Origin: Halorientalis sp. IM1011
GTDB taxonomy: Archaea > Halobacteriota > Halobacteria > Halobacteriales > Haloarculaceae
Assembly (NCBI RefSeq): GCF_001989615.1
Contig: NZ_CP019068.1
Coordinates: 62,001 to 126,000, forward strand
Direction of reading: 5' to 3'
DNA: 64,000 bases
Shown: one piece after another, positions 2,013 to 51,369 of the stretch
Layout: each line of letters opens with the position of its first letter
How positions within the stretch are numbered: position 1 is the first letter of the stretch
Notes under the pieces: generated by a model
Seen by the model: only the letters and a program-made list of their open reading frames with translations
The model's database searches: none
What the model was told of the DNA's origin: nothing
Program-made: the position numbers and the translations under genes

Positions 2013-2180
2013 CGTCCCCTCCGTCTGTGTCTCGGTGACCGGTGACCGTCCGATACGGCCACCCGACCACCGTACGATGCGCTCGTACCGTCGATCGATT
2101 CCCATTCTGTCATCGGTGATACTCCTGACAGCGTAGCGCCCACCGTCGTCTGTCACCCGACCCGACGAGAGCGGCGGCCT

Positions 2181-3755: not shown

Positions 3756-4207
3756 TCGTACGTGTTACGTGGGGGTAACGACGCGTTCGAGAGCCAGAAC
3801 GACTGGACGCTGCCGATCATATCGATGAACTTCGACATCGACTCGGGCTTGGTCACGAACGCGTTCGCGTAGTTGTCGTACAGGTCGGCGATGGTCGCGT
3901 CGTCGTCGGTCGTCGTCAGCACGATCACCGGAATCTGCCGGAGCGTGTCGTCGGATTTGATCTCCGCGAGAATCTCCCGCCCGTTTCGCCCCGGGAGGTC
4001 CAGGTCGAGTATGATGAGCTGTGGCGTCGTCGCGTCGGAGTAGCCGTTCTCCTTCCGGAGAAAGGAAAGCGCGCTCTCGCCGTCGGTGACGACGTTCAGT
4101 GAGACGTCGGCGTTTACCTCCTCGAAGGCTTCCTTGGCGAGTCGGCTGTCACCCGGATTGTCCTCGACCATCAGAACGTCGGCTCGTTTCGATGTCGTAG
4201 TCGTCAT
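3752..4207 (-). CDS. Single-domain response regulator (Rcp1/CheY-like)
   Basis: A 151-aa stand-alone receiver: acidic pocket VEDNPGDSRLAKEAF, phosphoacceptor Asp68 (LIILDLDLPGRNG), conserved Thr (VIVLTTT) and Lys (AFVTKP). It belongs to the group with an Asn-Pro-Gly-Asp loop that commonly shuttles phosphate between kinases. It overlaps both neighbours by ATGA junctions (3752-3755 and 4204-4207). It has no output domain, so it probably acts as a phosphate carrier between the neighbouring hybrid kinase and the HxlR-REC-HalX regulator (inference). Confidence 0.9.
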   Translation of the reverse strand: MTTTTSKRADVLMVEDNPGDSRLAKEAFEEVNADVSLNVVTDGESALSFLRKENGYSDATTPQLIILDLDLPGRNGREILAEIKSDDTLRQIPVIVLTTTDDDATIADLYDNYANAFVTKPESMSKFIDMIGSVQSFWLSNASLPPRNTYE

Positions 4208-18516: not shown

Positions 18517-19158
18517 ATGACAGAGACAGCTCCAGACGCCGACACGGCGGCCAGTAACGGCGGTGGGACGGGTGACCCTGCCGACTCGGACCTGGATCTC
18601 GACACGACGTTTCACCTGTTGCAGACGGAACGGCGACGGCTCGCTCTCCGATATCTGTTCGAACGCGAGCGTGCGGGTGACGCGGTGGTTCCGATGGGTG
18701 ACGTGGCCGATCAGGTCGCGGCCTGGGAACACGACACGACCGTCGAGCGACTCGAGTCCACCCAGCGCCAGCGGGTGTACGTCGGTCTCTACCAGACTCA
18801 CCTGCCGAAACTCGACCAGCACGACGTCGTCGACTACGACCAGTCGCGCGGCCAGGTCGAACTGCGGCCGCGATGTCGCATGCTCGAACCGTATCTCGAC
18901 CTCGCGCCCGAGTCGGGCGGGGCTGACTCCCGGAGCCAGACTCCGGCGAACGAGGACGCCCCGTCCGAACACACGCTGTCCATCCGGGCGAAGCACCTGC
19001 TGCTCACTGCAGTCGGACTCGTGCCGCTGGCCGTGCTGGCGGCCCAGGTCGGTCCGGCACTCGTCGTCTCGACGGTGCTGCTGGCGGCCGTCCTCACCAT
19101 CGCCGCGATCGTCGGAGGCGAACCGCAACGCTACGTGCCTCACACGGCAATCTCCTGA
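18517..19158 (+). CDS. Winged-helix domain protein with two C-terminal membrane helices
   Basis: 213 aa. Residues about 28-125 resemble the haloarchaeal DUF7344-like winged helix (FHLLQTERRRLALRYLF, VYVGLYQTHLPKLDQHDVV). Residues about 155-205 form two hydrophobic helices (LLLTAVGLVPLAVLAAQV, ALVVSTVLLAAVLTIAAIV). A membrane-anchored DNA-binding or signalling protein is the likely form. ATTAAAG about 29 nt upstream can serve as TATA box. It precedes another small HTH gene on the same strand by 20 nt, so they may share a transcript. Confidence 0.75.
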   Translation: MTETAPDADTAASNGGGTGDPADSDLDLDTTFHLLQTERRRLALRYLFERERAGDAVVPMGDVADQVAAWEHDTTVERLESTQRQRVYVGLYQTHLPKLDQHDVVDYDQSRGQVELRPRCRMLEPYLDLAPESGGADSRSQTPANEDAPSEHTLSIRAKHLLLTAVGLVPLAVLAAQVGPALVVSTVLLAAVLTIAAIVGGEPQRYVPHTAIS

Positions 19159-19554: not shown

Positions 19555-21447
19555 TTACTCGTCGACGGGCCCGACGGGTTCCCCCGCAGGCGGCGAGTCG
19601 GGCGTGGCGACCTGCTCCGTGACCGGCATCTCAAGCAGCGTCAGCAGCGAGTACAGCAGCGGCTGATTGTTCTCGCCGTTCACGTGCCGGCGATAACACT
19701 CGAGCGCACCGTCGAAGTCAAGCAACGGGAGGCGCTCCAGCAGGGCCTCGTTCTCCCGGATCGTCTCGAGCGTGAACGACGACCGGCGGACGATCTCGGC
19801 GCGGTTCGGCCAGGGCCCCTGGTCGAGGTGGGGTGCCGGTCCGTCGTCGGCGAAGTGCTTCCAGCGGAACTGGTTCAGGTTCCCGCCGACGTACTGGACC
19901 GGGAACGGATACTGGAGCGGGATCCCGGTATGGGCGTGCGGGATCGACGCGAGGTCGGGATCGAGATCCGACACGATCCGGTGGATCAGGTCCCGCCGCA
20001 CCAGCAGGTCGCGTGGAATCCGCTGTTGGAGGTCGAGCAGCCGGTTGTCGAGGAACGGGGTCCGGTACGGCCGGAGTTGCATGAGGCTCCGCGAGAAGAT
20101 GGCGTCGGTGTCCGCGCCCATCGGGTAGTAGTCGCCGTACATCACCATGTCGGTGAGGGTGTCGTAGGTGACGCCGTGGTTCTCGACCCGGGCGACGCCC
20201 TGGTCGATTCGGTTCTGGAGGATCCGATCGATGTCGCGCGAGTCGCTGACGTAGTGGACCGGTTCGATGGCTTCGGCGGTCTTGGCGGCGACGTACTGAT
20301 CGACGGTGTCGACGGGTTTCTCGGCCGGGAGCGTCACCTTGCCGACCGGCCCCAGCGACAGGTCGTGTGTCTGGAGCGGGCCGCCGTCGAACAGCATGTC
20401 GGCGTACAACCCAGAGAGGAGCACGTCCACGTTCTCCCGGATCTCGCCCTCGAACGGGGCGGTGTAGGCCTGATCGAACCACCCGCTGAAGTTCGACGTG
20501 GCGGGGCTCCGGTCGAGAATCGTCGCGTCGGTGTCGAGTTCCCGTTCGAGCATGTGGAACTCGTCGCCCGACGCGTCGGTCACGTCCCGGGCGATCCGGG
20601 TCTCGCGGCTCATCCAGTCGGTGATGTGGAACGCGTCGACGTCCCGATCGAGACCCGCGAGGAGGGCCCGGGAGTCGCTGCCGCCGCTGAGGAGGACGCC
20701 GTAGTCGAGGTCGTCGTCGTCGGTCCACTCGGCGAGCACCTGCTGGAACGTGTCGCGGAGGTCGTCGACGACCGTCGAGAGGGACTGATCGACCGGGCGG
20801 TACCGGGGTCGCCAGTAGGTCTCGGTCCGTTTCGAGGCGTCGGTCAGGTCGACCGTCACGACGGACGCGGGCGGGAGTTCGCGGACGCCAACGAGTGGCG
20901 TCTGGGTCCCGAACACGCGCCTGAGGACGAGGTACTCGTACAGGAGGTCCTCGTCGAAGGCGGGGTCGACCGCGGGGTGGTCGGGCAGCGCCTGGATGCT
21001 GGACGCGAAGACGAACCGGCCGTCGTCGGTCCGGGTGTAGTAGATCGGACGCGTCGCCAGTCGGTCGGTGACGAACGCGAGCGTGTCGGCCTCGCGGTCG
21101 AGCACCAGGATGGCGAAGTCACCGTTCAGGCCCTCGGCGAAGTCGAGCCCGTGGCGCTCGTAGAGGTCGGCACAGTACCGGGCGCTGTCGCCCGGCGCGT
21201 CCGCACGTGGCGTGTAGGACGTCCCGTCGTCGTAGCCGTACACGTCGCCCCAGACCCACAGCGAGACGTCCTCGCCGTCGACGGCCGCCGGCTGGTCGGT
21301 CGCGTAGAGGTCGTGGAACGAAGTCCACAGTGAGACCCGGTCACCGTCGTAGGTCGTTTCGACTTCGTCGTCGTGGGTCGTGATGCCGTCGACGAGCGCG
21401 TCCGTGCCGGCCGCGCCGGGACCGACGACCCCGCAGATTCCGACCAT
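19555..21447 (-). CDS. Asparagine-synthetase-like amidotransferase lacking Cys2
   Basis: A 630-aa homologue of AsnB/WbpS-type enzymes. The class II glutaminase domain is recognisable (MVGICGVVGPGAAG, GLNGDFAILVLDR), but Val stands where the catalytic Cys2 belongs; a Cys sits at position 5 instead, which cannot act as an N-terminal nucleophile without processing. The synthetase domain keeps the PP-loop (LLSGGSDSRALLAG). It lies 3 nt downstream of the sulfatase-like gene, so the two are coupled. In bacterial O-antigen clusters such proteins amidate uronic acids (WbpS, WbtH); ammonia or another amine may be the donor here. Cytoplasmic. Confidence 0.88.
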   Translation of the reverse strand: MVGICGVVGPGAAGTDALVDGITTHDDEVETTYDGDRVSLWTSFHDLYATDQPAAVDGEDVSLWVWGDVYGYDDGTSYTPRADAPGDSARYCADLYERHGLDFAEGLNGDFAILVLDREADTLAFVTDRLATRPIYYTRTDDGRFVFASSIQALPDHPAVDPAFDEDLLYEYLVLRRVFGTQTPLVGVRELPPASVVTVDLTDASKRTETYWRPRYRPVDQSLSTVVDDLRDTFQQVLAEWTDDDDLDYGVLLSGGSDSRALLAGLDRDVDAFHITDWMSRETRIARDVTDASGDEFHMLERELDTDATILDRSPATSNFSGWFDQAYTAPFEGEIRENVDVLLSGLYADMLFDGGPLQTHDLSLGPVGKVTLPAEKPVDTVDQYVAAKTAEAIEPVHYVSDSRDIDRILQNRIDQGVARVENHGVTYDTLTDMVMYGDYYPMGADTDAIFSRSLMQLRPYRTPFLDNRLLDLQQRIPRDLLVRRDLIHRIVSDLDPDLASIPHAHTGIPLQYPFPVQYVGGNLNQFRWKHFADDGPAPHLDQGPWPNRAEIVRRSSFTLETIRENEALLERLPLLDFDGALECYRRHVNGENNQPLLYSLLTLLEMPVTEQVATPDSPPAGEPVGPVDE

Positions 21448-21450
21448 CGG

Positions 21451-22905
21451 TCAGAGGTATCCCAGTTCTTCGAGTCGTGACTCGACCGCCGTGTCGAACT
21501 CCATCGACTGTTCCGCGGCGGCCGCACGGTCCTTGTACGTCTGGATGGGGACGTCGAACTGCTCGGTCGCGAACGGCGGCACGTCCACCTCGGCCCCACG
21601 CTGTGACTGCCAGGACGGAGTGTCCGGGTCGAGCTCGTACGCGTAACTCTCGTCGAGGGAGTTCCACTGGTACTTGGTGTCGCCGTCGTAGACACAGCGG
21701 ATCATGCGGTTCCAGTAGGCGTACTCGTCGTCCGTGAACTCCCGATTCCAGGTTCCGTCGCCCGTGCCGAGGAGGCCGACCGTCTCGGCGGCGACGCGGT
21801 CGCGACCGAACCGGTCGTCGTACTCCTCGTCGTGGGCCAGGCGGACGACGAGTTCGCCCAGATCCAGATGGGAGAAATACCGGTGTTCGGTCTCGGGGTA
21901 CCCGTCGGGCGGGTTGACGACTTCACAGGGCGTGTGGAGGACGCCCTCGGTCGCGGTGGCGGTGTGGTGGAACTCCTCGTCGTCGGCCGGGTAGCCGAGG
22001 TTGTGGCCGTGATCGGAGACGATCACGAACGTGGTCTCGCGATCGGTCTGGGCGCGCACGTCGTCGATCAACTGCGACACGGTGCGGTCGAGGTAGTCGA
22101 CGGCGGTGCGGTAGAGCGCCCGGTAGTTCTCGGTGTACTCCGTGGTCGCTTTCCCGTCGCGGTTGAGTTCCCACTTGTCGAGTTCCGTCGAGCGCCAGGT
22201 GTCGGGCACGTCGTGTAAGTCCTGATCGTACTGCCGGAGGTTCCGCAGCGGCGTGTGTGCGTCCATGTAGTTGACGAACGCGAAGAACGGTTCGTCGCCG
22301 TCGGCCTCGTCCTCGAGCCGGTCGGAGATGACGGTCGCGCCGTCGTCGACGGGTTCGGGGACCGGGAGCCGGCGGTAGTGGTCACCGAGCAGTGACCAGG
22401 CACCGTTGGCCACGCTCTTGCCGGGGTGGTCGTGGGACAGACAGGCACGCAGGAACGCCAGATACCGCTCGGCGGCGCTGTCGTGGTCGACTTCCGCTTT
22501 GGCCTCCTCGACGGTGAGGGCCTCCGGGAACAGCGACTCGTTGGTGTGAGAGCCGATCGAGAAGTCGTGGAACGCGTCGAACAGCGAATCGAACTCGAAA
22601 AACGAGTTCATGTACGCGTTGGCGCTCAGTCCGACCGTCCGATGGTCGGGCAGTCGGCCGAGGAAGGTGTCGTCGCGGTCGAGCGACGAGAAACTGAAGT
22701 CGGCGTCGAACCGCTCTGCGTGGACGCCGTGGGTGTGTGGTAGCCTGCCGGTGAAGATGCTCGTGTGACTGGGCACGCTCCAGGAACTCGCCGCGCGAGC
22801 CTGCTCGAAGGAGAGGTCGGACTTCGAGCGCAGGCGCGGCGCGTACTCGTCGAAACAGTCCTTCCGGACGGTGTCCAGGACGACGAACACGACGTTTCGT
22901 GTCAT
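21451..22905 (-). CDS. Sulfatase-family hydrolase (AP superfamily) with Ser-type active site
   Basis: 484 aa. The N-terminus provides the metal site (VVFVVLDTVRKDCFDEY) and the sulfatase signature is present in altered form: SWSVPSHTSIFTGRLPHTHG, where C/S-x-P-S-R is expected and His replaces Arg. A second metal site is VIVSDHGHNLGY. No signal peptide is seen, so it probably acts in the cytoplasm. It is first in an operon with the amidotransferase-like gene and is driven by the shared box at 23023-23040. It could be a sulfatase, or a phospho-transferring AP-superfamily enzyme acting on glycan intermediates. Confidence 0.87.
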   Translation of the reverse strand: MTRNVVFVVLDTVRKDCFDEYAPRLRSKSDLSFEQARAASSWSVPSHTSIFTGRLPHTHGVHAERFDADFSFSSLDRDDTFLGRLPDHRTVGLSANAYMNSFFEFDSLFDAFHDFSIGSHTNESLFPEALTVEEAKAEVDHDSAAERYLAFLRACLSHDHPGKSVANGAWSLLGDHYRRLPVPEPVDDGATVISDRLEDEADGDEPFFAFVNYMDAHTPLRNLRQYDQDLHDVPDTWRSTELDKWELNRDGKATTEYTENYRALYRTAVDYLDRTVSQLIDDVRAQTDRETTFVIVSDHGHNLGYPADDEEFHHTATATEGVLHTPCEVVNPPDGYPETEHRYFSHLDLGELVVRLAHDEEYDDRFGRDRVAAETVGLLGTGDGTWNREFTDDEYAYWNRMIRCVYDGDTKYQWNSLDESYAYELDPDTPSWQSQRGAEVDVPPFATEQFDVPIQTYKDRAAAAEQSMEFDTAVESRLEELGYL

Positions 22906-23022
22906 CGAATCACTTCGGAATGGTCCGATTGAGCCGCGATCGACGACGATACTGCCGGTGGGTTCGTCGCTGTGCTTTCGGGTAACCGTGATTCATACAT
23001 CCCGTTACCGGAGCCGACCGTG

Positions 23023-23040
23023 TTATTATAGGCGCCGTAA
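23023..23040 (-). promoter_or_regulatory. Shared promoter box (TTAC-N7-ATAATAA)
   Basis: Minus-strand reading: TTAC-GGCGCCT-ATAATAA-CAC, 118 nt before ATG 22905, implying a leader of roughly 90 nt. The remainder of 22906-23277 is GC-rich; I see no gene in it. Confidence 0.65.
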
Positions 23041-23277
23041 GTTCGCCCCGGAACGGACCCCGTTCAGTTCCGGATCGATGGGAACGGGAGTACAACACCG
23101 GCAGTGACGGGAGCACCGATACGCCGCCGCTCGGGTGGTGGGCTAGAAGGGGATCGTCGTCAACGCCGGCGGGGTCGTACTTACGGGGGCCGTAATCACG
23201 GCACAGCCGGCCCGACACACCGATCCGGGGCGTCGGCGGCCGAAACACACAGGGTGGTGCCGCAAACAGTGCCCCCA

Positions 23278-24402
23278 ATGGCACACACGGCAGATCAGTC
23301 GATAGCTCCCTTGCTCGTCGACGACGATCCCGCCAGCGGCAAGCGGCTGCGCCACCACTTGCGAGACGACGCGTTCCGGTTCGACACGCCGTCGGCGGAC
23401 CTCACACGCGTCGAGACGGTCGCCGCTGGCCGGGAGGCCGTCGAGTCCGGGACGTACGACGTGGTGTTGCTGTCGCTCGGGGTCGGGGACACCGAGGGAC
23501 TCGACGCCCTAGATCGATTCCTCGAGGAGGACCACGGCGTTCCGATCGTCGCGCTGACCGAGATCGACGGACGCGACGTGGGTGAGCGGGCGGTCCGTCG
23601 CGGTGCGCAGGACTTCCTCGTGAAAGGGTCGCTGGACGGGGACCGGCTCTGGCGTGCCATCAGGTACGCCGTCGAGCGACAGGCACAGGTCGAGGAACTC
23701 GAACAACGGGCACGGGAACTCCGCCGGCAAAACGATCGGATGGCGTTTTTCAACGCCGTGCTCCGTCACGACCTCCTGAACGGGATGAACGTCATCAGAG
23801 GCCGGGCACAGCTGTTGCGGGACTCGGTCGACGACGAGGAGCGTGACCACGTCGAGGCGCTGCTGGAGTGGAGCGACAGTCTCGTCGACCTCACCGAGAA
23901 GGTCCGTGCAGTCCTCGACTCCGTGACCGAGGGCGAGGAGCGGGACCGCCAGCCAGTCGATCTGGCCCCGGTCGTAGCGGGCGAGGCCGAGCGCGTGCGC
24001 GGGATGGCCGAGGGTGTGACGGTAACCGTGGACGTGCCGGCGGAGGCGACGGTCCTGGCCGACGACCTGCTCGGGGACGTGATCGGCAACCTCATGACGA
24101 ACGCCGTCGAGCACAACGATCCCGACGGGCTGACGGTGACGGTGACGGCGTCGGTCGCGGACGACACCGTCACCCTGTCCGTCGCCGACGACGGGGCGGG
24201 ACTCCCCGCGACCGAGCACGCGACGCTGTTCGAGCGCGGCGAGTCCGGGACGGCGTCGAACGGGTCCGGGTTCGGCCTCCACTTCGTCGACGTCATGGTC
24301 GACACGTACGGCGGCGACGTGCGAGCGGGCGAGTCCGACGCCGGCGGTGCCGAGTTCGTCCTCACTCTCCCGCGGGCTGATACTGCCGGACAGAATATTT
24401 AA
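23278..24402 (+). CDS. Histidine kinase with N-terminal receiver lacking the phospho-acceptor Asp
   Basis: A 374-aa soluble kinase. The N-terminal receiver keeps the acidic pocket (LLVDDDPASGKRL) and the Lys (DFLVKGSLD), but position 66, normally the phosphorylated Asp, is Ser (YDVVLLSLGVGD). A HisKA helix (NAVLRHDLLNGMNVIRGRAQLL) and an ATPase domain follow (LMTNAVEHNDPDG, VADDGAGLP, GSGFGLHFVDVMVDTYGG). I chose ATG 23278 because the receiver begins right after it; an in-frame start at 23104 adds only low-complexity sequence. The architecture matches the hybrid kinase at 2664-3755. It may respond by protein contact rather than phosphorylation. Confidence 0.88.
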   Translation: MAHTADQSIAPLLVDDDPASGKRLRHHLRDDAFRFDTPSADLTRVETVAAGREAVESGTYDVVLLSLGVGDTEGLDALDRFLEEDHGVPIVALTEIDGRDVGERAVRRGAQDFLVKGSLDGDRLWRAIRYAVERQAQVEELEQRARELRRQNDRMAFFNAVLRHDLLNGMNVIRGRAQLLRDSVDDEERDHVEALLEWSDSLVDLTEKVRAVLDSVTEGEERDRQPVDLAPVVAGEAERVRGMAEGVTVTVDVPAEATVLADDLLGDVIGNLMTNAVEHNDPDGLTVTVTASVADDTVTLSVADDGAGLPATEHATLFERGESGTASNGSGFGLHFVDVMVDTYGGDVRAGESDAGGAEFVLTLPRADTAGQNI

Positions 24403-24551
24403 CAGCCGGTGTTCGAGGGAGGCGGTATGACGATGTCCCCGGACAGATTCGACGAGCAACGGTTACGAACCTCTGGCCGGCAGTATGGTACCGGGACAGT
24501 GCTGACGACCACGTGTGACCGTCCGATCGGGAGGCGGCCGGCGGCCACGGC

Positions 24552-24569
24552 TTACCGCCTCTATAATAA
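24552..24569 (+). promoter_or_regulatory. Shared promoter box, leaderless spacing
   Basis: TTAC-CGCCTCT-ATAATAA-ACC, ending 28 nt before ATG 24597. With its flank it is nearly identical to the minus-strand box at 2181-2198. Confidence 0.72.
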
Positions 24570-24596
24570 ACCGCCCGGGTCGTCTACGGATGGACG

Positions 24597-26357
24597 ATGC
24601 CAGGGGTCAGTATCGTCCGCGAGGCCGGTGGCGACGCCGCCGGCTTCGACGCGGCGCTGTCTGCCGTTCGCTTCTTCGACGAGTATCGAACCACGGTCCA
24701 CTACGACGGTGACGATCTGACCGTCGCGTCCACGGGGTACGACGGGTACCCGGTCCGGACGGTCGAGACCGAGCACGGCTGTGTCGTCCTCGAGGGGTAC
24801 CTCTACGACGTGGACGACGCGGACGCCCACCTCGCGGACGTGGCCGAGTGGGTCGCGACCGACGACCGCACGGCGCTGCGGTCCTGGGTCCGTGACCGCG
24901 ACGGCGACTTCCTCGTGGTCGTCGTCGACGAGACCGAGGAGACGGCGACGGTCGTCCCCGACGCGCTCGGTCGGCTCCCGCTGTACCACGCCGAGATCGA
25001 CGGGGCGACGGTCGTCTCCCGGGAGCTGAAGCTGATCCGGGAGCTAGCGGAGATCCGGGACGAGCCGGTCGGCGTCGACGACCTCGCGGTCGCCCAGTCG
25101 CTGCTGTTTGGCTATCGGCTGGGGACGGGAACGCTCTTCGACAGCGTCGACCGGTTGCCGCCGGCCGCGACGCTGTCCGTCGGCGAGGATCGGGAGGTGT
25201 CGCGGCTGTTCCGACACGACTTCGGCGCGACGGTCTACGATCACCGCTCGCCCGACGAGAACGCGGCACAGCTCGCGGACCTGTTCGAGACGGCCTGCGA
25301 GAACCGCACCGCGCTCCCCGGCGGGACGGTCCTCGCGCTCTCGGGGGGCCTCGACTCGCGGGCGGTCGCCGGCGCGTTCGAGGCCACGGGCGTCGACTTC
25401 ACGGCGGCGACGTTCGACCGGCCTGACGGGTCCGCCTCCGACGAGGTCCGGGCCGCGGCGTCGGTCGCCGATGCACTCGACGTGGACTGGCAGCAGTACG
25501 TCGCTCACGACACCGACGAACACCGGGAGACGCTGCTGGAACTCAAACAGGGGATGAACTACCTCCGGCTCTCCTTCCTCGTGGACTTCCTGGAGCGACT
25601 CGATCCGCCACGGGGGGCGGCGACCTACGTCACCGGCGACGGCGGCGACAAGGTCTTCCGGGACATGCGCCCGTCGCGGTCGTTCGCGGATCGCGGTGAG
25701 ATGGTCGACTACGCCATCGCCGCGAACAGCATCTTCGACGCGAGCGAGGCGGCGGCCATCGCGGGCGTCCCCGAGGAACGGCTGCGGGCGTCGGTCCGTG
25801 ACCGCTTCGAGCAGTACCCCGAGTCCGACCACAGGGACGCGTACGTCCACTTCCTCGTCCGCGAGCGCGGGATGAACTGGCTCTATCAGGGCGAGGACCG
25901 GAACCGCTACTACTACTGGAGCGTCAGCCCCTTCTACTCCCAGTCGTTCTTCCGGGCGGCGATGCAGTGTCCGCCCGACCAGAAGGGGCCGGAGTTCTAC
26001 CAGCGGTTCCTCCGGCAGTTCGCGCCCGAGCTGGTCGACATCGAGTACGTCAACTTCGGCGCGTCGATCACATCCGCGGAGTACCGGGTCAAGCGGTTCG
26101 TCTACGACACCCTGTCGCGGTACCCCTCGCTCCAGGATGCCGTCGTCGACGTGGTCAAACGGCTCGGGAACGACAGCACCGTGTCGGCCCCGGAAGTCGT
26201 CGAGGACATCGAGCGGGAACTGGCGGCCGACGGCGTCGAGCGGACGCTCTCGACGGCGGCCGTCGAGGACGTCGTCCACAACCCCGACGCGTACAGCGAA
26301 CCGGAGATGTACCACCTCCTGACGGTCGCGACGCTCGTCGGCGAAGCCTCGGGGTAG
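24597..26357 (+). CDS. Second asparagine-synthetase-like protein, also without Cys2
   Basis: 586 aa. The N-terminal glutaminase-like domain starts MPGVSIVREAGGDAAG, so the nucleophilic Cys2 is replaced by Pro; the later GTGTLFDSVDRLPPAATL segment is typical of the family. The synthetase domain retains the PP-loop (VLALSGGLDSRAVAGAF) and a GDGGDKVF motif. It shares fold and defect, but little sequence, with the protein at 19555-21447. Candidate reactions are ammonia-dependent amidation of a uronic acid or intramolecular amide formation, as in beta-lactam synthetases. Start 24597 is supported by the promoter spacing. Convergent with a glycosyltransferase (8-bp gap). Confidence 0.88.
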   Translation: MPGVSIVREAGGDAAGFDAALSAVRFFDEYRTTVHYDGDDLTVASTGYDGYPVRTVETEHGCVVLEGYLYDVDDADAHLADVAEWVATDDRTALRSWVRDRDGDFLVVVVDETEETATVVPDALGRLPLYHAEIDGATVVSRELKLIRELAEIRDEPVGVDDLAVAQSLLFGYRLGTGTLFDSVDRLPPAATLSVGEDREVSRLFRHDFGATVYDHRSPDENAAQLADLFETACENRTALPGGTVLALSGGLDSRAVAGAFEATGVDFTAATFDRPDGSASDEVRAAASVADALDVDWQQYVAHDTDEHRETLLELKQGMNYLRLSFLVDFLERLDPPRGAATYVTGDGGDKVFRDMRPSRSFADRGEMVDYAIAANSIFDASEAAAIAGVPEERLRASVRDRFEQYPESDHRDAYVHFLVRERGMNWLYQGEDRNRYYYWSVSPFYSQSFFRAAMQCPPDQKGPEFYQRFLRQFAPELVDIEYVNFGASITSAEYRVKRFVYDTLSRYPSLQDAVVDVVKRLGNDSTVSAPEVVEDIERELAADGVERTLSTAAVEDVVHNPDAYSEPEMYHLLTVATLVGEASG

Positions 26358-26365: not shown

Positions 26366-27274
26366 CTACCCGGTGACGCGTCGATAGACGCGCTCTATCT
26401 CGGCTCCCATCCGATCCAGTCCGTCGACAGCCGCGCGGCCGTCGCTGCGCTGGCCGGCGTCGAGTACCGACTCCAGCCCCGCGACCAGTTCCGACTCCGT
26501 CTCACAGACCCGGGAGTTGGACACGTCTGTGAGCGTCTCGCGGACGAATCCCACGTCCGTCGAGACGACGGGGACGTTGCAGGCCGCGGCCTCCTTGACG
26601 ACCATCGGCCCGCTCTCGCGGTCGGAGGTCACCAGCACGGCGTCACTCGCGTTCATGTAGAAAGGGACGTCCTCGTAGGGGACGCCGTGCATCGTCCGGA
26701 GGTCGACGTCGCCGTCGACGGCGTCGGCGACGCGCTCGGCCAGCGGGTAGTTCTTCACCTCGCGGCCGGGCGGATAGGGGAAGAGGACGACGGGTCCGTC
26801 GGTGTCCCAGCCGAGTCGGTCGCGGGCGCGCTCGCGGTCGATGGGCCGGAACTGCTCGGTGTCGACGCCCCAGGGGATCACCTCGTGGTCCGTGTCGAGG
26901 TGGTCGCTCATCGTCTCGGAGGGGAGGACGACGGCGTCGCTCAGCCGCGCCGAGAGCCGGCTCAGCCGGGGGACGAACGAGTCCGTGGCCATGAGGTCCG
27001 ACCCCCAGAGGTGGAGGACGACGGGGCAACTCGGCTGTGCGATCGCGAACGGACCGAGCAGCCCGTAGTGGGCGTGGATCACGTCGTAGTCGTCCAGAGC
27101 GTGGTCCAGGACGTCCGGATAGTACCGGAGGTAGTCGACGGCCGAACGGGACTCGGTCGTCGAGTGTTCGCCGGGAACGGTCAGCGTCGTACACGACACG
27201 CCGTGGGCCTCGACGGCTGCGACCTGCTTCTCGAAGAACGACCGCGGCGTGTTGACCAGCTGTAACACTTTCAT
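26366..27274 (-). CDS. GT4-type glycosyltransferase (short form)
   Basis: 302 aa, somewhat shorter than typical GT4 enzymes. Begins MKVLQLVNTPRSFFEKQVAAV and has DVIHAHYGLLGPFAIA and HLWGSDLMA in the acceptor domain, VIPWGVDTEQFRP at the domain junction, and a C-terminal donor site with SDRESGPMVVKEAAACNVPVVSTDVG (E-x7-E region). Cytoplasmic. The ATG is 71 nt after a box identical over 20 nt to the one before the DUF354 gene at 36139, suggesting co-regulation of two enzymes of one pathway. Confidence 0.9.
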   Translation of the reverse strand: MKVLQLVNTPRSFFEKQVAAVEAHGVSCTTLTVPGEHSTTESRSAVDYLRYYPDVLDHALDDYDVIHAHYGLLGPFAIAQPSCPVVLHLWGSDLMATDSFVPRLSRLSARLSDAVVLPSETMSDHLDTDHEVIPWGVDTEQFRPIDRERARDRLGWDTDGPVVLFPYPPGREVKNYPLAERVADAVDGDVDLRTMHGVPYEDVPFYMNASDAVLVTSDRESGPMVVKEAAACNVPVVSTDVGFVRETLTDVSNSRVCETESELVAGLESVLDAGQRSDGRAAVDGLDRMGAEIERVYRRVTG

Positions 27275-27382: not shown

Positions 27383-27958
27383 TCACTCCGAGCGAACGGC
27401 CCACTGGTAGAGTTCGCGCAGGCCCGGTGCGCCGTCGACCAGCCAGAGCGCGATCGCCGCCAGCGGCGGGCCGAAGAAGACGACGAACACCGTCGGATCC
27501 TCGGCCGTGACGAGCAGTTCGAGGAAGGCGACGAGGAACCCCATGACGGTCGTGATCGCCCCGGCCGGGTCCTCGCTCCCGGGGAAGATCACCAGCGGCC
27601 AGAGCACCTTGCCGACGGTGTACGGTTTGTCCAGCAAGATCGCGAGGAGCACGTCGCCGGCGAGGTGTGACCAGTAACCGACGACGAAGGCGAGACCGAG
27701 GGACTCGCTGTCGCGTCGCTGTGCGAGCCAGTAGACCGCGAGGCCGACCGGGAGCGCCACGAAGAGCGAGTGGCCGGCCGCGTAGCCGCTCGCGAACACG
27801 TCGAACACCCAGGCCGCGCTCTTGTCGACGAGATCTGGAAGCTGCGTCGCGACGGCGAGGACGAGCACGTCCCGGCCGGTGACGCCGGGGTCGGCGGTCA
27901 GTCGCGACGACAGCGAGTAGAGCACGTAGCCGAAGGCGGCGTGTCCCCACGGCCACAT
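27383..27958 (-). CDS. Membrane-bound metal-dependent hydrolase, YdjM/DUF457-like
   Basis: 191 aa with four to five hydrophobic segments. The family hallmarks are histidines near helices: MWPWGHAAFGYVLYSL at the N-terminus, AAGHSLFVALPVGLAVYW and VGYWSHLAGDVLLAILLDKP. The gene overlaps the preceding GT-C-like gene through a TGATG junction (27956-27960), so they are co-translated. Members of this family are known as inner-membrane proteins of poorly defined, possibly phospholipase-like activity. Here it may act on the lipid carrier or the membrane side of the glycan pathway (inference). Confidence 0.8.
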   Translation of the reverse strand: MWPWGHAAFGYVLYSLSSRLTADPGVTGRDVLVLAVATQLPDLVDKSAAWVFDVFASGYAAGHSLFVALPVGLAVYWLAQRRDSESLGLAFVVGYWSHLAGDVLLAILLDKPYTVGKVLWPLVIFPGSEDPAGAITTVMGFLVAFLELLVTAEDPTVFVVFFGPPLAAIALWLVDGAPGLRELYQWAVRSE

Positions 27959-29919
27959 CAGTTGCCTCTCGCGGTTCCGATCCCGCGTTCACAGACCGAC
28001 ACCTGGCCGTTGTCGTAGTTGATCCCGTAGCCGCCACAGAGCTGGGACCGATCGACGGCTGGCTTGTGCGCCCGTCCCTGGCCGCTCCGGAAGTACGCGC
28101 CACCCGTCTGGGCGTACTCCCGGTAGACGAGGGTACCGTTCGGACTGGTCCCGTTCACGATCGCGATGGGTTCGGTATGGGTGCCCCACGCCCGTTCGAA
28201 GACCGTGCCGTAGGGGTGATCGGCCGAGAGCTGGTCTTGCCGGCTCGTGTTCACCGTCCCGTTGATCGTCTCGACGGCGGCCAGTTCGCTCTCGGTGTAG
28301 CTGTAGCGGGTCTGGACCCCGTCGAACGGCGGCGAGTCGAGGGAGCCCTGACTCGACAGCAGCGTGACGGGCGGGTACGTGACCGCGAACAGTACGAGTA
28401 CCGTCGCGACCACGGCCCGCGGCGTCTCGCTGGCGAGGTAGCCGACACCGATCGCCGCGAGGACGGCGGCCGGCGCGGTGAGGAAGGAGGGCCACCGGCC
28501 CGGGACGAACGTCCGGATGCCGAAAAGCGGGAGGCCGAAGATGAACACGAGCATCACGAGGACAGCGATGATGCACGCGATGGTCGTCTGCGACGTGCGC
28601 TTGCGGTGGAGGACGTAGAGGCTCCCGATGACCGTCAGGAGCAGGATGAGGACGAGTCCCATCGCGTTGACGTACGTGATCGCCACCTCGAAGGTGCTGG
28701 GCTGGGCGGCCGCGGATTCGCCGCCACCGCCGGCGCTGCCCTGGCTCGCGAGGTTCAGGAAGCCGGCCGAGGTCCGCAGCGTCTCCCCGAAGTAGCTGAA
28801 CATCGTCTCGAGGAACGACGACCCCTGGTAGGGCGTCAGCGACCACATGAACGTGAGCAGGCCCAGGTCGAACACCAGGAGACTGGAGAGGTTCACCGAC
28901 TCGCGGACCCGTCCGCCGAGACCGCCCTCGAGTTTCGGTGCCAGCAGGCCCGTCGAGAGCAGGAGCTTCGCGATCAGCCCCGACCCGATGAACACGAGCA
29001 TGACGAACGACGAGATCTGGTGTGTGAGGATGATCGCGACGCTGAACAGGACGACGAGCAGGTAATCGCGTGGCCCGTAGTTCGACGCCATGATTCGGGT
29101 CAGTGCGTACACGATGGCGACGAAGAAGACGAGCCCGAGACTCGTCGGGATCAGGTGGATCCCCCACTCGATTACGTTCCCGCTCAAGGCGAAGAGGGCC
29201 GCGGCGAACACGGCCAGCCGCTTCTCGACGAGCACGTCCGCGGTCGCGTAGACCAGAAGCGTCGACAGCGGCATGGCGATCCCGACGGTGAGAAACAGCG
29301 CCTGCCGGATCGACACGTCGAGCAACTGGCTGCCGACCGCGACGAGCAGGTGAAAGAGCGGCGAGGCGTAGTACTTCGAGGACGCGATGGGCGACAGCGA
29401 GTTCTCGTTGGCGATGCCGTGGACGTAGTTGGCCACGTGGCTCCAGATGTCGATGCCGACGTAGCCCGGTGCGGTGTACGCGCCCGCCAGCCGGACGACC
29501 GCGCCGAAGACGACCACCTCGGTCAACAGGAGCCCGACGTGGTAGTCCTGCTCGTCGGAGAACAGCACCTGCACGAGCAGGGTGATCCCCGTCCAGACCG
29601 CGAGGTAGTAGAACAGCGGCGAGCGGGACTGGTGGACCGCGACGACGACCATCGCGGCCATCCCGGCGAACACGAGGGTCGGGAGGAGTCGGGTCAGCCA
29701 CGGCGACAGCGTCGGCATGCCCGTCCCGTTCGAGTACCGGACCCCGAGCAGGTACAGCAGGCTCGCGACCACGAGCACCAGCGGCAGCGTATCGATGTAC
29801 ACCTGTGAGACGACGAACCGGAGCGGGAGCATCGCGAGCCCCAGAAGCAGGGCCAGGATCGCACCGGCGACGTCGAGGCGAAAGTCGAACCAGCGAGCGT
29901 CGTTCGTTTGTTGAGCCAT
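27958..29919 (-). CDS. Polytopic GT-C-like membrane glycosyltransferase
   Basis: 653 aa, about 12-14 predicted transmembrane helices in the first 490 residues and a hydrophilic exterior C-terminal domain. Between helices lie the external acidic motif GIDIWSHVANYVHGIANENSL and YYASPLFHLLVAVGSQLL, consistent with a lipid-phosphate-sugar-dependent GT-C fold (DxD-like loop, not proven). It lacks the oligosaccharyltransferase WWDYG motif, so it is probably not AglB. It probably modifies the glycan on the outer face of the membrane. Overlaps the YdjM-like gene; promoter at 29985-30002. Confidence 0.75.
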   Translation of the reverse strand: MAQQTNDARWFDFRLDVAGAILALLLGLAMLPLRFVVSQVYIDTLPLVLVVASLLYLLGVRYSNGTGMPTLSPWLTRLLPTLVFAGMAAMVVVAVHQSRSPLFYYLAVWTGITLLVQVLFSDEQDYHVGLLLTEVVVFGAVVRLAGAYTAPGYVGIDIWSHVANYVHGIANENSLSPIASSKYYASPLFHLLVAVGSQLLDVSIRQALFLTVGIAMPLSTLLVYATADVLVEKRLAVFAAALFALSGNVIEWGIHLIPTSLGLVFFVAIVYALTRIMASNYGPRDYLLVVLFSVAIILTHQISSFVMLVFIGSGLIAKLLLSTGLLAPKLEGGLGGRVRESVNLSSLLVFDLGLLTFMWSLTPYQGSSFLETMFSYFGETLRTSAGFLNLASQGSAGGGGESAAAQPSTFEVAITYVNAMGLVLILLLTVIGSLYVLHRKRTSQTTIACIIAVLVMLVFIFGLPLFGIRTFVPGRWPSFLTAPAAVLAAIGVGYLASETPRAVVATVLVLFAVTYPPVTLLSSQGSLDSPPFDGVQTRYSYTESELAAVETINGTVNTSRQDQLSADHPYGTVFERAWGTHTEPIAIVNGTSPNGTLVYREYAQTGGAYFRSGQGRAHKPAVDRSQLCGGYGINYDNGQVSVCERGIGTARGN

Positions 29920-30019: not shown

Positions 30020-30778
30020 CTATCCGAACTCCTGTGCCAGATACCGCTCGCGTGCGTACGTGGCGGTCCGGCGCCGGGTCTCCGCGACACCCTCGTGAAC
30101 GCGGTGTTCGAAGGGGTCGTCGGTCTCGCCCCAGAGTCCGGGGTGGACGAGCACCTGTGCTTTGGACCCGAACCCGGCCGGGTCGGGCGGGTCCCCGCGC
30201 CAGCGCTGGTCGGAGTCGCCGTGGTACTCGATGTCGGTGAAGAATCGCGGTTCGTACGTGCTGGGGAAGGCATCGAATTCGCGGCGCAACACCCGCTCGG
30301 GCGGGATGTGGAACGAGACCGTCTCGATCGGGTCGAGGACCGTCGAGAGGGTCGCCCGCTCGTCCCGGACGCGCTCGGCGATGGGTGCCTCCGCAGTCGG
30401 GACCGCGTCCGGCGACCAGTACTGGTGCGTGCTGAAGTGCACCCCGATGTCGTGGCCGAGATCCGCGATCTCGGTCAGTGTCTCGCGGGTGTTCGCTTCC
30501 AGCACGTTGTACATGGGCGAGGCGACGAGCACGAAGTAGGTACTCTCGATCCCGAGGTCGGCCTCGATCTCGGCCATCCGGCGTGCACGCCGGGGAGACA
30601 GATCCACGTCGTGGCGCAACAGGACGGTCCCCGGGGCGACCGAGTCGCCGTACCGCCCGAACGTGTACCCCTCCGAACGGATCTCGCGGAGGAACGACTC
30701 GTACCAGTCGAACGAGAACGTGACGGCGTCGGTAAGCGACGCCGACGCGCCGTCCGCTCGGTGATCAGACGTCGTCAC
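30020..30778 (-). CDS. Polysaccharide-deacetylase-like protein (NodB fold)
   Basis: 252 aa. The first NodB motif appears as LLRHDVDLSPRRA (Asp-Val-Asp with preceding His) and the second as GHDIGVHFSTHQYW (His for metal). No signal peptide, so action is cytoplasmic. GTG 30778 is the start; it lies 14 nt inside the upstream glycosyltransferase gene, whose TGA is at 30765-30767, showing translational coupling. In glycan clusters such proteins remove N-acetyl groups from lipid-linked or nucleotide sugars; the exact substrate is unknown. Confidence 0.85.
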   Translation of the reverse strand: MTTSDHRADGASASLTDAVTFSFDWYESFLREIRSEGYTFGRYGDSVAPGTVLLRHDVDLSPRRARRMAEIEADLGIESTYFVLVASPMYNVLEANTRETLTEIADLGHDIGVHFSTHQYWSPDAVPTAEAPIAERVRDERATLSTVLDPIETVSFHIPPERVLRREFDAFPSTYEPRFFTDIEYHGDSDQRWRGDPPDPAGFGSKAQVLVHPGLWGETDDPFEHRVHEGVAETRRRTATYARERYLAQEFG

Positions 30779-31772
30779 GGGTGTCCTCCCGGATCTGCAG
30801 GTGGTCGTTGTTCTGCCGGTCCGTGACCATCGACAGGAACAGACAGACGACGCCGAGCATCGTCAACACGAGTGACTCGACGACGCCCGGATCCTCGCCG
30901 TGGTCCGTGAGCCGACTCAAAAGCGCCAGGCCGCCGGTGCCGACGGCGAACGCGCCCAGCGGGTAGAGGATCGCCAGCGGGTGGAACTCACGGACGAGGT
31001 ACTTCGCCCGCAGTCGCCAGAGGAAGTCCCGGAGCAGGAGCGCCGACAGCTTCGGGACGAACGATCGGTAGGAGATGTGGCTCGTCTCGTCCTTGTAGAC
31101 GGCGCGTCGCGCCACGTCGGCGATCCGCATCTCGTGGACGTTGAGTCGGACGAGCAGGTCGTTCGCGAAGCCGTAATCCTCGTAGAGCTCGTCGATCTCG
31201 ACTTTCTCCAGGGCCTCGAGCGAGATGGCGGTGGACCCGTTCTGGGGATCCATCACGCTCCAGTAGCCGCTGGCGATCTTGGTGAGCGCCGAGAGGGTGA
31301 CGTTCCCGAACTGCCGGAACGCGGGCATGTCCTCGTTGTCGCGGTCGAGCAGTCGGTTCCCCTTGGCGTAGTCGGCCCGGTCCTCGGCGACGGGCGCGAC
31401 GATGCGTTCGACGATGTCGGGTTCGGTCTGCCCGTCACCGGAGATGACGACCGTCACGTCGATTCCGTCGTCGCGCGTGTGCTCGTAGCCCGTCTTGATC
31501 GCGCCGCCGACGCCCCTGTTTTCCTCGTGCTGGAGCGGGACGACCTGTGGATCGAGTTCGACGCCGCCGTCGGTGACGACCGCCGGATCGGCCGTCTGCT
31601 CGTTCACGCGGTCGGCGTGTGTCTGGATCTCCGTCCAGGTCTCGTCGGTCGAGGCGTCGTCGATCACGTAGGCGCGGTCGACGAACTCCGGGAGCGTCTC
31701 GATCACGTCGCCGATGTGTCCGGCCTCGTTGTAGGCCGGAATCACGGCACCGACGGTGTTACCCTCGTACAT
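30765..31772 (-). CDS. GT2-family glycosyltransferase with C-terminal membrane anchor
   Basis: 335 aa, dolichyl-phosphate-sugar-synthase-like. The GT-A nucleotide site is visible (VGAVIPAYNEAGHIGDVIETL, AYVIDDASTDETW, VVISGDGQTEPDIVERI with the DGQ form of the DxD region). Two helices follow at about 255-320 (LAILYPLGAFAVGTGGLALL, VVESLVLTMLGVVCLFLSMV). It would load a sugar onto the polyprenyl phosphate carrier at the cytoplasmic face. Overlaps the deacetylase by 14 nt; the shared box at 31865-31882 lies 93 nt upstream. Confidence 0.9.
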   Translation of the reverse strand: MYEGNTVGAVIPAYNEAGHIGDVIETLPEFVDRAYVIDDASTDETWTEIQTHADRVNEQTADPAVVTDGGVELDPQVVPLQHEENRGVGGAIKTGYEHTRDDGIDVTVVISGDGQTEPDIVERIVAPVAEDRADYAKGNRLLDRDNEDMPAFRQFGNVTLSALTKIASGYWSVMDPQNGSTAISLEALEKVEIDELYEDYGFANDLLVRLNVHEMRIADVARRAVYKDETSHISYRSFVPKLSALLLRDFLWRLRAKYLVREFHPLAILYPLGAFAVGTGGLALLSRLTDHGEDPGVVESLVLTMLGVVCLFLSMVTDRQNNDHLQIREDTRDDV

Positions 31773-34740: not shown

Positions 34741-34766
34741 GGTCTGTGTCGGCCAGTGTATGTTCC

Positions 34767-35909
34767 ATGGACGAGACAGGTCCGGAACAGTCGAGACGTG
34801 GGGTTCTCAGAGCGATCGGCGGCGGGGTCGGTGTGGCGATGGCCGGAAACGGCATCGCCGGTTCCGCACTGGGACAGACCACGACCGGGAACGGCGGCGG
34901 CTCCGACAACACGAGCAAACTCGTATTCACGTACGACGACAGTCCGGCCGAGGACGTCACGAAGACGCTCCCGATCCACCAGGAGGAGGGCGTCCCGGCC
35001 AGTATCGGTGCAGTCTCCAGTCACATCAATCACTCCGAGGAGTGGCTCTCGGGCCAGCAGTTGCAAAAACTGGAGTCGGAAGGGTGGGAGATCATGTCCC
35101 ACACCGCCGAGCACCGTGCGCTCGACGAGATCGAGGTCACGCGTGACGTCGCCCCGGGCGACACGAAGCTGTACGTCGAGTCGAACATCCACTCGCGAAC
35201 GCCCGATCCGATTCTGATCAGCGACGGCGAGACGGAAACGACCGCGACGATCGTCGACGGTGGGGAAGACGCCAACGGAGAGTACCTCGAACTCGAATCG
35301 TCGGTCGGCCAGTCGTTCTCCGCGAGCGACGGGGTGACCGAGCGGTTCACGGACGAGGTGCTCCGGTCCGCGCTCGAAAACTCGAAGACAGCACTCGAAC
35401 AGTACGGGGTGACCGTCTCGAATCTGGTCCTGCCGTACGATCGCTACGGCGAGCGCGCGAAGGAACTCATCCCCGAGTACTACGACGCGGTTCCGAACGC
35501 CGATTACGGCGGCGTCAACCACGTCGACGACCTCGATCCCTACGAGATGGAGCGGAAGTACTTCGCGATGGGACGGTCCGGCGTGACCGAACTCGGGGAC
35601 TTCATGGACACCGTCGCAGACGAGAACGCGATCGGGATTCTGGCCGGTCACAGCCAGTCCGAGGAACTCACTCCCGACCGGATCCGGCTCGCCATCCGCA
35701 TGGCGAAGGAACGCGACATCGAGATCGTCACGCTCCGTGAGGCCCTCCAGGACGCGGGGGTCGTCGACGAATCGAACACGTCGACGTCGGAGTCGACCGG
35801 ACCGTCCGGTGACGACTCGACGGGGTCGTCGGACTCCTCGGGTGGATTCTTCGATTCGCTGGCACAGACGATCAGCAACATCATCGACTCGGTCCTGAGC
35901 GTTTTCTAG
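34767..35909 (+). CDS. Tat-exported polysaccharide deacetylase
   Basis: 380 aa. Tat signal SRRGVLRAIGGGVGVAMAGN, then a NodB domain with motif 1 KLVFTYDDSPAEDVTKTL (two Asp), motif 2 IMSHTAEHRALDEI (His-x3-His) and later NLVLPYDRYG. The C-terminal 45 residues are Ser/Thr/Gly/Asp-rich (a possible wall-spanning linker) and end in a short amphipathic helix. ATG 34767 is 27 nt after the promoter box; the longer frame from 34746 is disfavoured. Unlike the deacetylase at 30020 it acts outside the cell, probably trimming acetyl groups from the assembled polysaccharide. Confidence 0.87.
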   Translation: MDETGPEQSRRGVLRAIGGGVGVAMAGNGIAGSALGQTTTGNGGGSDNTSKLVFTYDDSPAEDVTKTLPIHQEEGVPASIGAVSSHINHSEEWLSGQQLQKLESEGWEIMSHTAEHRALDEIEVTRDVAPGDTKLYVESNIHSRTPDPILISDGETETTATIVDGGEDANGEYLELESSVGQSFSASDGVTERFTDEVLRSALENSKTALEQYGVTVSNLVLPYDRYGERAKELIPEYYDAVPNADYGGVNHVDDLDPYEMERKYFAMGRSGVTELGDFMDTVADENAIGILAGHSQSEELTPDRIRLAIRMAKERDIEIVTLREALQDAGVVDESNTSTSESTGPSGDDSTGSSDSSGGFFDSLAQTISNIIDSVLSVF

Positions 35910-36050: not shown

Positions 36051-36138
36051 CGACCGCAGAGCGAGTGGCGTCGACTATGACACGTCAGCGACGACGGAGT
36101 CGCGTCGAACCGCCTGCGAACTCGCCGGGGTGGCATCG

Positions 36139-37224
36139 ATGACTGTCCTGGTCACGATCCAGCACCCGGCCCACGTCCACTTCTTCAAACACGCCATCGC
36201 GGAACTGGAGGCGAACGGACGGGACGTCCACGTCGTCGCCCGCGACAACGAGGTGGCGGTGGACCTGCTCGACGCCTACGACATCGAGCACGAGGTGCTG
36301 GCGAGCGAGAGCGACTCGCTGGCCCAGCTGGCGATAACCCAGGCGACCTACGAGTTCAGGGCCGTCCGCTACGCTCGCCGGATCGATCCCGACGTGGTCA
36401 CCGGCATCGGCGGCGTCACCGCGGCGCACACGGCGGCGCTCGCCGGGGCCGAGAGCGTCGTCTTCACCGACACCGAGCACGCGAAACTGATCAACCACCT
36501 CACGCACCCGGTCGCCGACCGGATCGTCACCCCCGACTGTTACACCGACGACCTCGGCGGGAAACAGGTCTCGTACTCCGGGTACCACGAACTCGCCTAC
36601 CTCCACCCCGACCGGTTCACGCCGGACCCGTCGGCGCTCGCGGACCTGCGCGTCGACCCCGAGGACACGTTCGTCGTCCTCCGGGTGAGCGCGTGGGACT
36701 CCTCCCACGACGTGGGCGCGAGCGGATTCGCTGACCTCGGCGAGGCCGTCGACCGCCTCGAAGACGCCGGCGCGACCGTCCTCGTCACGTCGGAGGTCCC
36801 GCTCCCCGACCGTCTCGAACGGTGTCGGACGTCGGTGCCGCCGGAGGACATGCACCACCTGCTTTCGTACGCGGACCTGTTCGTCGGCGAGGGGGCGACG
36901 ATGGCCTCCGAATCGGCGGCCCTCGGGACGCCGGCGATCTACGTGAACTCTCTGACGATGGGGTACATCGACGAACTCGACACCCGGTACGACCTGCTCG
37001 CGCGGTACCCGGAGGCCGGCAGTCACGACGCCGCGATCGAACACGCCGTCGATATCCTCGAATCGGACGACGACGGCCGCTGGTCGAGTCGCCGCGAGCG
37101 ACTGCTCGAAGAGAAACGGGATACGACGGACGTCATCCTCCGGGCGCTCGGCGCGACAGTCGACGACGTGACTACCGACTCGGACCGCGCCGACGGACCG
37201 ACGGTCGCCACTGCGGACACCTAG
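36139..37224 (+). CDS. DUF354 protein, GT-B fold related to UDP-GlcNAc 2-epimerases/glycosyltransferases
   Basis: 361 aa from ATG 36139 (GTG 36130 also in frame). The N-terminus TVLVTIQHPAHVHFFKHAI is diagnostic for DUF354; further matches are DVVTGIGGVTAAHTAALAG, VFTDTEHAKLINHL, YSGYHELAYLHPDRF and the C-terminal donor-site-like stretch FVGEGATMASESAALGTPAIYVN. The fold is that of WecB/MurG-type enzymes. In archaeal and bacterial glycan clusters these proteins act near C2-epimerisation or transfer of acetamido sugars; which one applies here cannot be told. Shares an exact 20-nt promoter box with the glycosyltransferase at 26366. Confidence 0.87.
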   Translation: MTVLVTIQHPAHVHFFKHAIAELEANGRDVHVVARDNEVAVDLLDAYDIEHEVLASESDSLAQLAITQATYEFRAVRYARRIDPDVVTGIGGVTAAHTAALAGAESVVFTDTEHAKLINHLTHPVADRIVTPDCYTDDLGGKQVSYSGYHELAYLHPDRFTPDPSALADLRVDPEDTFVVLRVSAWDSSHDVGASGFADLGEAVDRLEDAGATVLVTSEVPLPDRLERCRTSVPPEDMHHLLSYADLFVGEGATMASESAALGTPAIYVNSLTMGYIDELDTRYDLLARYPEAGSHDAAIEHAVDILESDDDGRWSSRRERLLEEKRDTTDVILRALGATVDDVTTDSDRADGPTVATADT

Positions 37225-47262: not shown

Positions 47263-47266
47263 GTTT

Positions 47267-47282
47267 TGCCCCGTTGGGGGCA
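47267..47282. repeat. Hairpin upstream of the TnpB remnant
   Basis: TGCCCC (47267-47272), loop GTTG, GGGGCA (47277-47282). IS200/IS605 elements use end hairpins for transposition; this could be such a relic. The rest of 47283-47683 has no ORF that I believe. Confidence 0.4.
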
Positions 47283-47446
47283 GTGAATGTCCAGCATTCT
47301 GAACGGCTATATAATCGCTTATCTCGTGTGCAGTCAGATCTCGAGTGCAGCTCTCTCGATGTACGGACTCTGACGACACATCTGTTGGTTTGTCTGCTGC
47401 ACCAGCGGTGAAATCCCATTCCGCTAATCCTCAGGTTCAGTAGCAT

Positions 47447-48475: not shown

Positions 48476-48495
48476 GAATGGGAATGTCTACCGTA

Positions 48496-51367: not shown

Positions 51368-51369
51368 GC

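Follow-up and report, generated by a model that had tools for sequence, protein, structure and literature searches.

What do two asparagine-synthetase-like proteins that lack the catalytic N-terminal cysteine do among the glycan genes of a haloarchaeon? The question is raised by a stretch of 64,000 nt of Halorientalis sp. IM1011 (contig NZ_CP019068.1, positions 62,001–126,000 of the forward strand), hereafter called the window. The first protein, P1 (19555..21447, minus strand), has 630 amino acids, begins MVGICGVVG, and matches PF00733 and PF13537; the second, P2 (24597..26357, plus strand), has 586 amino acids, begins MPGVSIVRE, and matches PF00733. Both are AsnB-like and carry an R-type PP-loop, S-x-G-x-D-S-R. 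Our answer is that P1 and P2 represent two Cys-less families, out of at least three, found in haloarchaeal glycan loci, and that they may be ligases that work without glutamine.

Loss of the glutaminase site

Both reading frames, with their intact SGGxDS PP-loops, were as a sequence-only reading of the window had described them, judged from the open reading frames and a family alignment. In Pfam, Asn_synthase (PF00733) was above the cut-off in both proteins (5.9e-9 for P1 and 9.4e-6 for P2); the GATase_7 match scored 51.7 bits in P1 (cut-off 25) and was weak in P2 (21.9 bits, under the cut-off). P1 and P2 were 26% identical over approximately 200 N-terminal residues.

The absence of the catalytic Cys, claimed in the same reading, was confirmed. 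Residue 2 was never Cys in 34 sequences of the P1 family and 29 of the P2 family (Val2 in P1 itself, Pro2 in P2). It was Val in most P1 relatives and another non-Cys residue in distant ones, where the N-termini were less surely aligned; it was Pro or Val in the P2 relatives and Asn or Gln in a third family, B. Because the Cys-less start was family-wide, it reflects more than chance. The numbering of AsnB starts at Cys1, after Met removal. Opposite its glutamine-binding residues N74-G75-E76, P1 has W-G-D (residues 66–68; 21244..21252, minus strand; hmmsearch and hhalign against E. coli AsnB) and P2 has E-G-Y (residues 66–68; 24792..24800, plus strand; alignment with E. coli AsnB), in which E66 and G67 were invariant. 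These replacements bear out the claim that the glutamine pocket is gone. Judged from the alignments, the loss of the glutaminase is complete in both families, with neither Cys2 nor the glutamine-binding N-G-E remaining.

A misassigned start codon concealing an MCG N-terminus, an objection that the earlier reading had raised to its own claim, was not found. The ATG of P1 is preceded in frame by TAC-CTC-TGA-CCG, and that TGA terminates the alkaline phosphatase (AP)-superfamily gene upstream. For P2, there is an in-frame stop ten codons 5' of the ATG, with no ATG, GTG, or TTG between. Met-Cys occurs nowhere in P1 or P2, and no ATG, GTG, or TTG followed by a Cys codon occurs within their first 150 codons. 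The in-frame stops, the three same-strand frames, and the family-wide alignment ruled out a hidden Cys start or a frameshift. Cys5 of P1 (MVGICG) was likewise rejected as an exposed propeptide Cys, being Cys in only 15 of the 34 family sequences; the P1-family starts in L019 and L022 read MVGISA, without it. As a separate observation, the AP-superfamily gene and P1 share a reading frame with only TGA-CCG between them (21448–21453), and a read-through fusion is possible.

An R-type PP-loop and the missing lysine

In the synthetase half, the PP-loop is SGGSDSR in P1 (residues 254–260; 20668..20688, minus strand; Arg invariant) and SGGLDSR in P2 (residues 249–255; 25341..25361, plus strand). S-G-G-x-D-S-R was invariant in both families, and S-x-G-x-D-S-R was invariant in the 34 P1, 29 P2, and 8 B sequences, which were only 35–56% identical to the first sequence; this constancy argues against decayed proteins. 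The residue after DS is S, T, or A in the MCG-type haloarchaeal AsnB proteins (L127–129), in many of the stand-alone C-terminal-type proteins that were read (e.g., L001 and L134), and in E. coli AsnB, and R-x-K is kept.

At the place of the RxKxGF motif of AsnB and β-lactam synthetase (BLS), P1 reads IPHAxTG (residues 502–508; 19924..19944, minus strand) and P2 reads IxYx[DN][FY]G (residues 482–488; 26040..26060, plus strand), with no Lys in either family; the corresponding B stretch is ILxHRPP, with no conserved Lys. This place was assigned by motif position and secondary structure; hidden Markov model and profile–profile alignments with AsnB ended before the C-terminal part. By position, then, the Lys kept by K-type relatives is not kept by P1, P2, or B. 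Another Cys-less protein of the same genome, A, reads DREKGAG in this region, so its R-x-K is kept. The Arg of the PP-loop and the loss of the Lys appear from sequence to be linked, yet the pairing is imperfect, because some proteins without a recognized Lys motif are not R-type: a simple pattern also found no match in the lasso-like L131 and L156, in some A-type proteins, and in some stand-alone proteins.

K449 of AsnB and K443 of BLS are essential in the characterized enzymes. Invariant Lys residues are present elsewhere in the two families, and Lys530 (P1) or Lys463 (P2) might stand in for the lost one. Opposite the Tyr348–Glu382 dyad of BLS, P1 has SGLYAD and P2 has TGDGGDK, with no aligned Tyr or Glu seen. 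The analogy with BLS drawn in the sequence-only reading therefore holds for the Cys-less N-terminus and the fold, but not for the Lys region, where family-specific motifs are found instead.

AlphaFold2 models of P1 and P2 had a mean pLDDT of 87.8 and 92.0, respectively. Foldseek matched both domains of both models to TsnB9, BLS, AsnB, and carbapenam synthetase (CPS), with TM-scores of about 0.46–0.70 and large root mean square deviations, which may stem from different domain orientation. Both proteins are thus predicted to have full-length two-domain folds of the asparagine-synthetase/β-lactam-synthetase type. The curated model TIGR01536 gave 110.5 bits for P1 and 64.9 bits for P2, below its cut-off of 267.1. 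In a tree of the synthetase region, which includes one long branch (L164), all R-type rows lay on one side of a branch with support 98/94, and the lasso-like L131 and L156 of haloarchaea lay on the other. We propose an R-type branch characterized by S-x-G-x-D-S-R, no Cys2, no conserved Lys at RxKxGF, and a position on one side of this tree; in the alignments and tree, P1, P2, and B all appear to have these features. L156 and L131/L170 are themselves haloarchaeal AsnB relatives of a MSGFVA type that resemble lasso cyclases, and L156 holds two divergent neighbors.

Although the fold and the ATP site are already known, the R-type branch is uncharacterized so far. No solved relative of B was found by profile search, and no curated family naming P1, P2, or B was found. 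In the plasmid collection, close families of all three occurred only in haloarchaea; among the matches listed, the bacterial ones to P1 were about 24–25% identical, and those with a product name were ordinary AsnB. We found no paper in the open-access literature on asparagine-synthetase-like genes of haloarchaeal polysaccharide loci; one candidate, a transposon screen (PMC5198076), proved to concern an AsnC-type regulator.

Genomic partners and polysaccharide loci

The distribution of the families was determined in 391 haloarchaeal genomes, all of one class. B was the commonest, with 121 genomes (31%), against 65 for P1 and 50 for P2; P1 relatives of 49–56% identity occurred in 13 named haloarchaeal genomes. 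Co-occurrence with B was significant for P1 (p 4e-14) and P2 (p 1.6e-10) by Fisher's test, uncorrected for phylogeny and genome size. P1 and B were separated by 90–360 bp in 12 of the 391 genomes, whereas P2 and B were 8–21 kb apart in five.

A gene for an AP-superfamily, sulfatase-like protein lies directly upstream of P1 in the same frame, with a TGA-CCG-ATG junction (21451..22905, minus strand; PF00884, 1.7e-19). The order AP-superfamily gene, P1, B was found in L011, L015, L016, L018, and L125; the AP-superfamily gene and P1 occurred without B in L012 and L020, and P1 and B without the AP-superfamily gene in L013, L017, L019, L021, and L022. The AP-superfamily gene is thus a conserved module partner of P1. 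More distant P1 relatives often adjoin an ATP-grasp gene (C9 in eight loci and C39 in two). The suggestion that P1 and P2 are each other's partners did not hold, because P1 pairs with B and the AP-superfamily gene or with ATP-grasp, and P2 occupies a separate, larger locus. Among the places compared, P1 and P2 were close (3 kb) only in this genome, and we rejected them as a conserved functional pair; the conserved partner of the first protein is the B family together with the AP-superfamily gene, not P2.

On the contig of P1 and P2, A is located at G000:C2:48015-49784 (L024:10015-11784) and B at C2:52353-54095; both are Cys-less and outside the window. The earlier count of two Cys-less members in the region was correct as to both proteins but too low, since P1, P2, A, and B make four such AsnB relatives within about 40 kb. 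A is approximately 2.6 kb from B, and L157–L160 of other haloarchaea are possibly related to A. From a reading of its sequence, an open reading frame beside B (L024:12729-14069) is IS200/IS605 OrfB/TnpB-like, perhaps tied to a rearrangement that parted B from P1.

The neighbors of P2 include genes for a flippase, glycosyltransferase (GT) family GT4, DUF354, DUF1616, an AP-phosphodiesterase, an LpxD-like protein, and secreted β-helix proteins, with a FemAB-like gene in some loci; Haloprofundus halobius provides an annotated example. The B loci across the set contain nucleoside diphosphate (NDP)-sugar dehydrogenases, GlmU/GlmM-like proteins, a flippase, a deacetylase, GTs, DUF7344, and DUF1616, and glmS adjoins B in nine of 20 loci. 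Haloferax gibbonsii pHGLR2 is annotated with most of this gene set, including a GT39 gene. We conclude that B and P2 occupy conserved polysaccharide loci producing hexosamines and uronic acids. That the two proteins lie in a glycan region, as first proposed, was supported by its GTs, DegT aminotransferase, GlmS, and NDP-sugar dehydrogenases, and by the flippase of related loci.

Within this genome, a 6-kb segment that overlaps the left end of the window encodes, besides DegT, two NDP-sugar dehydrogenases (one of them UDP-GlcNAc 6-dehydrogenase-like), a UDP-GlcNAc 3-dehydrogenase-like protein, and a hexapeptide acyltransferase, not all of them with model scores above the cut-off. The DegT aminotransferase gene (918..2156, minus strand; PF01041, 4e-118) ends this run of NDP-sugar dehydrogenases, N-acyltransferase, and 3-dehydrogenase (L025). 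From pathway knowledge, the set would be that expected for an N-acetylated 3-amino-uronic acid.

Several other genes of the window recur with the families. To the left of P1 are an AP-superfamily phosphodiesterase-like gene (C3; 6709..8334, plus strand; PF01663), conserved in the surroundings of P2 and next to some relatives of P1, and a DUF7344 gene (D3; 18517..19158, plus strand; PF24035), which recurs beside the AP–P1–B module and beside B. To the right of P2 are, on the minus strand, a GT4 gene (C12/D7; 26366..27274; PF00534), conserved in P2 and B loci, and three genes conserved in B loci, for a YdjM-like membrane protein (D21; 27383..27958; PF04307), a GT39-like membrane glycosyltransferase (D9; 27958..29919; PMT_2 just under the cut-off), and a GT2 protein (D16; 30765..31772; PF00535). 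A probable polysaccharide-deacetylase-like gene (C27 in P2 loci; 30020..30778, minus strand) had no Pfam match and was named from its sequence. These are followed on the plus strand by genes for an LpxD-like hexapeptide acyltransferase (C28; 31980..32798), present in two other P2 loci too; a secreted β-helix protein (C4; 32958..34529; PF13229), repeatedly linked to P2; a polysaccharide deacetylase (34746..35909; PF01522); and a DUF354 protein (C13/D5; 36130..37224), which we take to be glycosyltransferase-like. The last of these and a DUF1616 gene (C10/D6; 38770..39762, minus strand) are conserved in both P2 and B loci. The β-helix protein and L086:5742-7643 are secreted proteins tightly linked to P2, one of them with long internal repeats.

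Several sensor kinase and response regulator genes also lie in the glycan region (2664–5079, 9060–11045, 14890–18117, and 23104–24402). GC-content drops to 0.51–0.59 at 46000–56000, around genes read from their sequence as those of an IclR regulator, a CoA transferase, an ABC sugar transporter, and a citrate-lyase-like protein; this segment is probably an acquired catabolic island.

Proposed function and known systems

We propose that P1 and P2 are glutamine-independent, ATP-using ligases whose target is the carboxylate group of a uronic acid in the surface glycan, with an amine other than glutamine-derived ammonia as the nucleophile, a reading to which we give about an even chance. P1, P2, and B (the last not adjacent here) would be members of the R-type branch that lost glutamine use for good. 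ATP would be bound at the conserved PP-loop, and the carboxylate of a polysaccharide uronic acid would probably be activated; this acid would most likely be an N-acetylated amino-uronic acid that the neighboring sugar-nucleotide genes produce. In the least certain step, an amino acid, amino sugar, or amino alcohol would attack the activated carboxylate to give an amide decoration or bridge. P1 may act together with B and with the AP-superfamily enzyme encoded next to P1; by analogy, this enzyme would attach a sulfate or phosphate group to the glycan that P1 modifies, or remove one. What the lost Lys did may in part fall to the Arg after the PP-loop. A more specific version is doubtful: P1 and B would form one two-protein ligase independent of both glutamine and Lys, with the PP-loop Arg replacing the Lys, that links uronic-acid carboxylates to amines (an amino acid, or an amino group freed by the deacetylases of the locus) while the AP-superfamily enzyme modifies the same unit.

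Two points weigh against this proposal. The chief one is the Lys loss: with no Lys seen at the place of AsnB K449 and BLS K443, simple AsnB- or BLS-like amide chemistry may not occur. The other is that several P1 modules (L012 and L016) have no obvious glycan genes around them.

With free ammonium as the nitrogen donor, the same activation would yield a primary amide, the kind of product that WbpS-type enzymes form with glutamine. Ammonia can replace glutamine in AsnB-type enzymes, as it does in PesC (PMC13060819), and uronic-acid pathway genes adjoin; however, replacement of the whole glutamine pocket and the Lys region, together with the linkage to AP-superfamily, ATP-grasp, and FemAB-like genes, suggests altered chemistry rather than a mere switch of nitrogen source, and we consider ammonia-driven synthesis unlikely. 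Although ammonia and another amine are indistinguishable computationally, the evidence leans to another amine, because every glutamine feature is lost and ATP-grasp and FemAB-like ligase genes lie near some relatives.

Somewhat less likely still, P1 and P2 could be ATP-binding scaffolds or pseudoenzymes that organize the polysaccharide machinery. The loss of Cys2, glutamine pocket, and Lys region and the pairing of P1 with B would fit such a role, but the PP-loop and the G and D residues of the second phosphate-binding segment are invariant over wide divergence, and invariant His, Arg, and Lys residues specific to each family are present. Non-amide PP-loop chemistry on the glycan pathway, such as adenylation or a group transfer like that of the PP-loop sulfurtransferases, is improbable: the synthetase domain is weakly similar to LarE, TtuA, and NAD synthetase in Foldseek, and the Lys region is lost, but the full two-domain architecture best matches AsnB, BLS, and CPS, and nothing points to sulfur or nucleotide transfer. 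A role in peptide cyclization, as in lasso or other RiPP pathways, is largely refuted, because NF033535, the lasso cyclase model, gives P1 59.1 bits and P2 38.8, far under its cut-off of 525, the neighbors are glycan genes, no transglutaminase-like protease or precursor was noticed among the annotated neighbors, and the lasso-like L131 and L156 lie across the tree split.

To our knowledge, the enzymes for amino-acid-substituted uronic acids and N-glycyl bridges of archaea, a type of glycan chemistry known for long, are largely unassigned. If the R-type branch makes surface-sugar amides, as the ligase proposal holds, its members are candidates for both, and the AsnB fold would be seen to work without both Cys and Lys. 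The glycan of Methanococcus voltae contains Thr-substituted ManNAcA, for which the enzyme adding Thr was still unassigned in 2010 (PMC2952790), Halococcus has N-glycyl-glucosaminyl bridges (PMC4187196), and in Halobacterium two AP-superfamily proteins affect glycan sulfation (PMC11980604). B, present in about a third of the sampled haloarchaeal genomes, is annotated just as "asparagine synthase-related," and its asparagine-biosynthesis GO term is misleading. The copy of B in Haloferax gibbonsii LR2-5 (HfgLR_RS18765, on pHGLR2) makes the hypothesis directly testable, this strain being a virus-host model open to genetics (PMC7921747, PMC9229481). Halorussus vallis offers an example of a P1–B operon.

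Among known systems, E. coli AsnB (1ct9) shares with P1 and P2 the two-domain fold, the SGGxDS PP-loop, and the shape of the glutaminase-like domain, and its PFLD motif is kept in P1; P1 and P2 differ from it in having no Cys2, no glutamine-binding N-G-E, and no conserved RxKxGF Lys, and in the Arg after the PP-loop. BLS and CPS (1jgt and 1q15) have the same fold, a Cys-less N-terminal domain, and glutamine independence, but in P1 and P2 the Lys region and probably the Tyr–Glu dyad are not conserved, the context is glycan rather than β-lactam, and identity is 14–18%. The hydroxyamidotransferase TsnB9 (7ylz) was the best fold and profile match of both proteins, yet 12–18% identical in structural alignments, and its gene context differs. 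The glycan amidotransferases WbpS and WbtH are AsnB-like, belong to surface-glycan clusters beside NDP-uronic-acid genes, and are described as glutamine-dependent, whereas P1 and P2 lack every glutamine-site feature tested. The nearest counterpart in proposed function is in the capsule of Campylobacter jejuni, where serinol and ethanolamine uronamides come from the ATP-grasp ligase Cj1438 with the phosphatase Cj1435 (PMC11800379): there too an ATP-dependent uronic-acid amide ligase is accompanied by a separate hydrolase, but the folds (ATP-grasp and HAD phosphatase) are unrelated, and the likeness is one of analogy, not homology.

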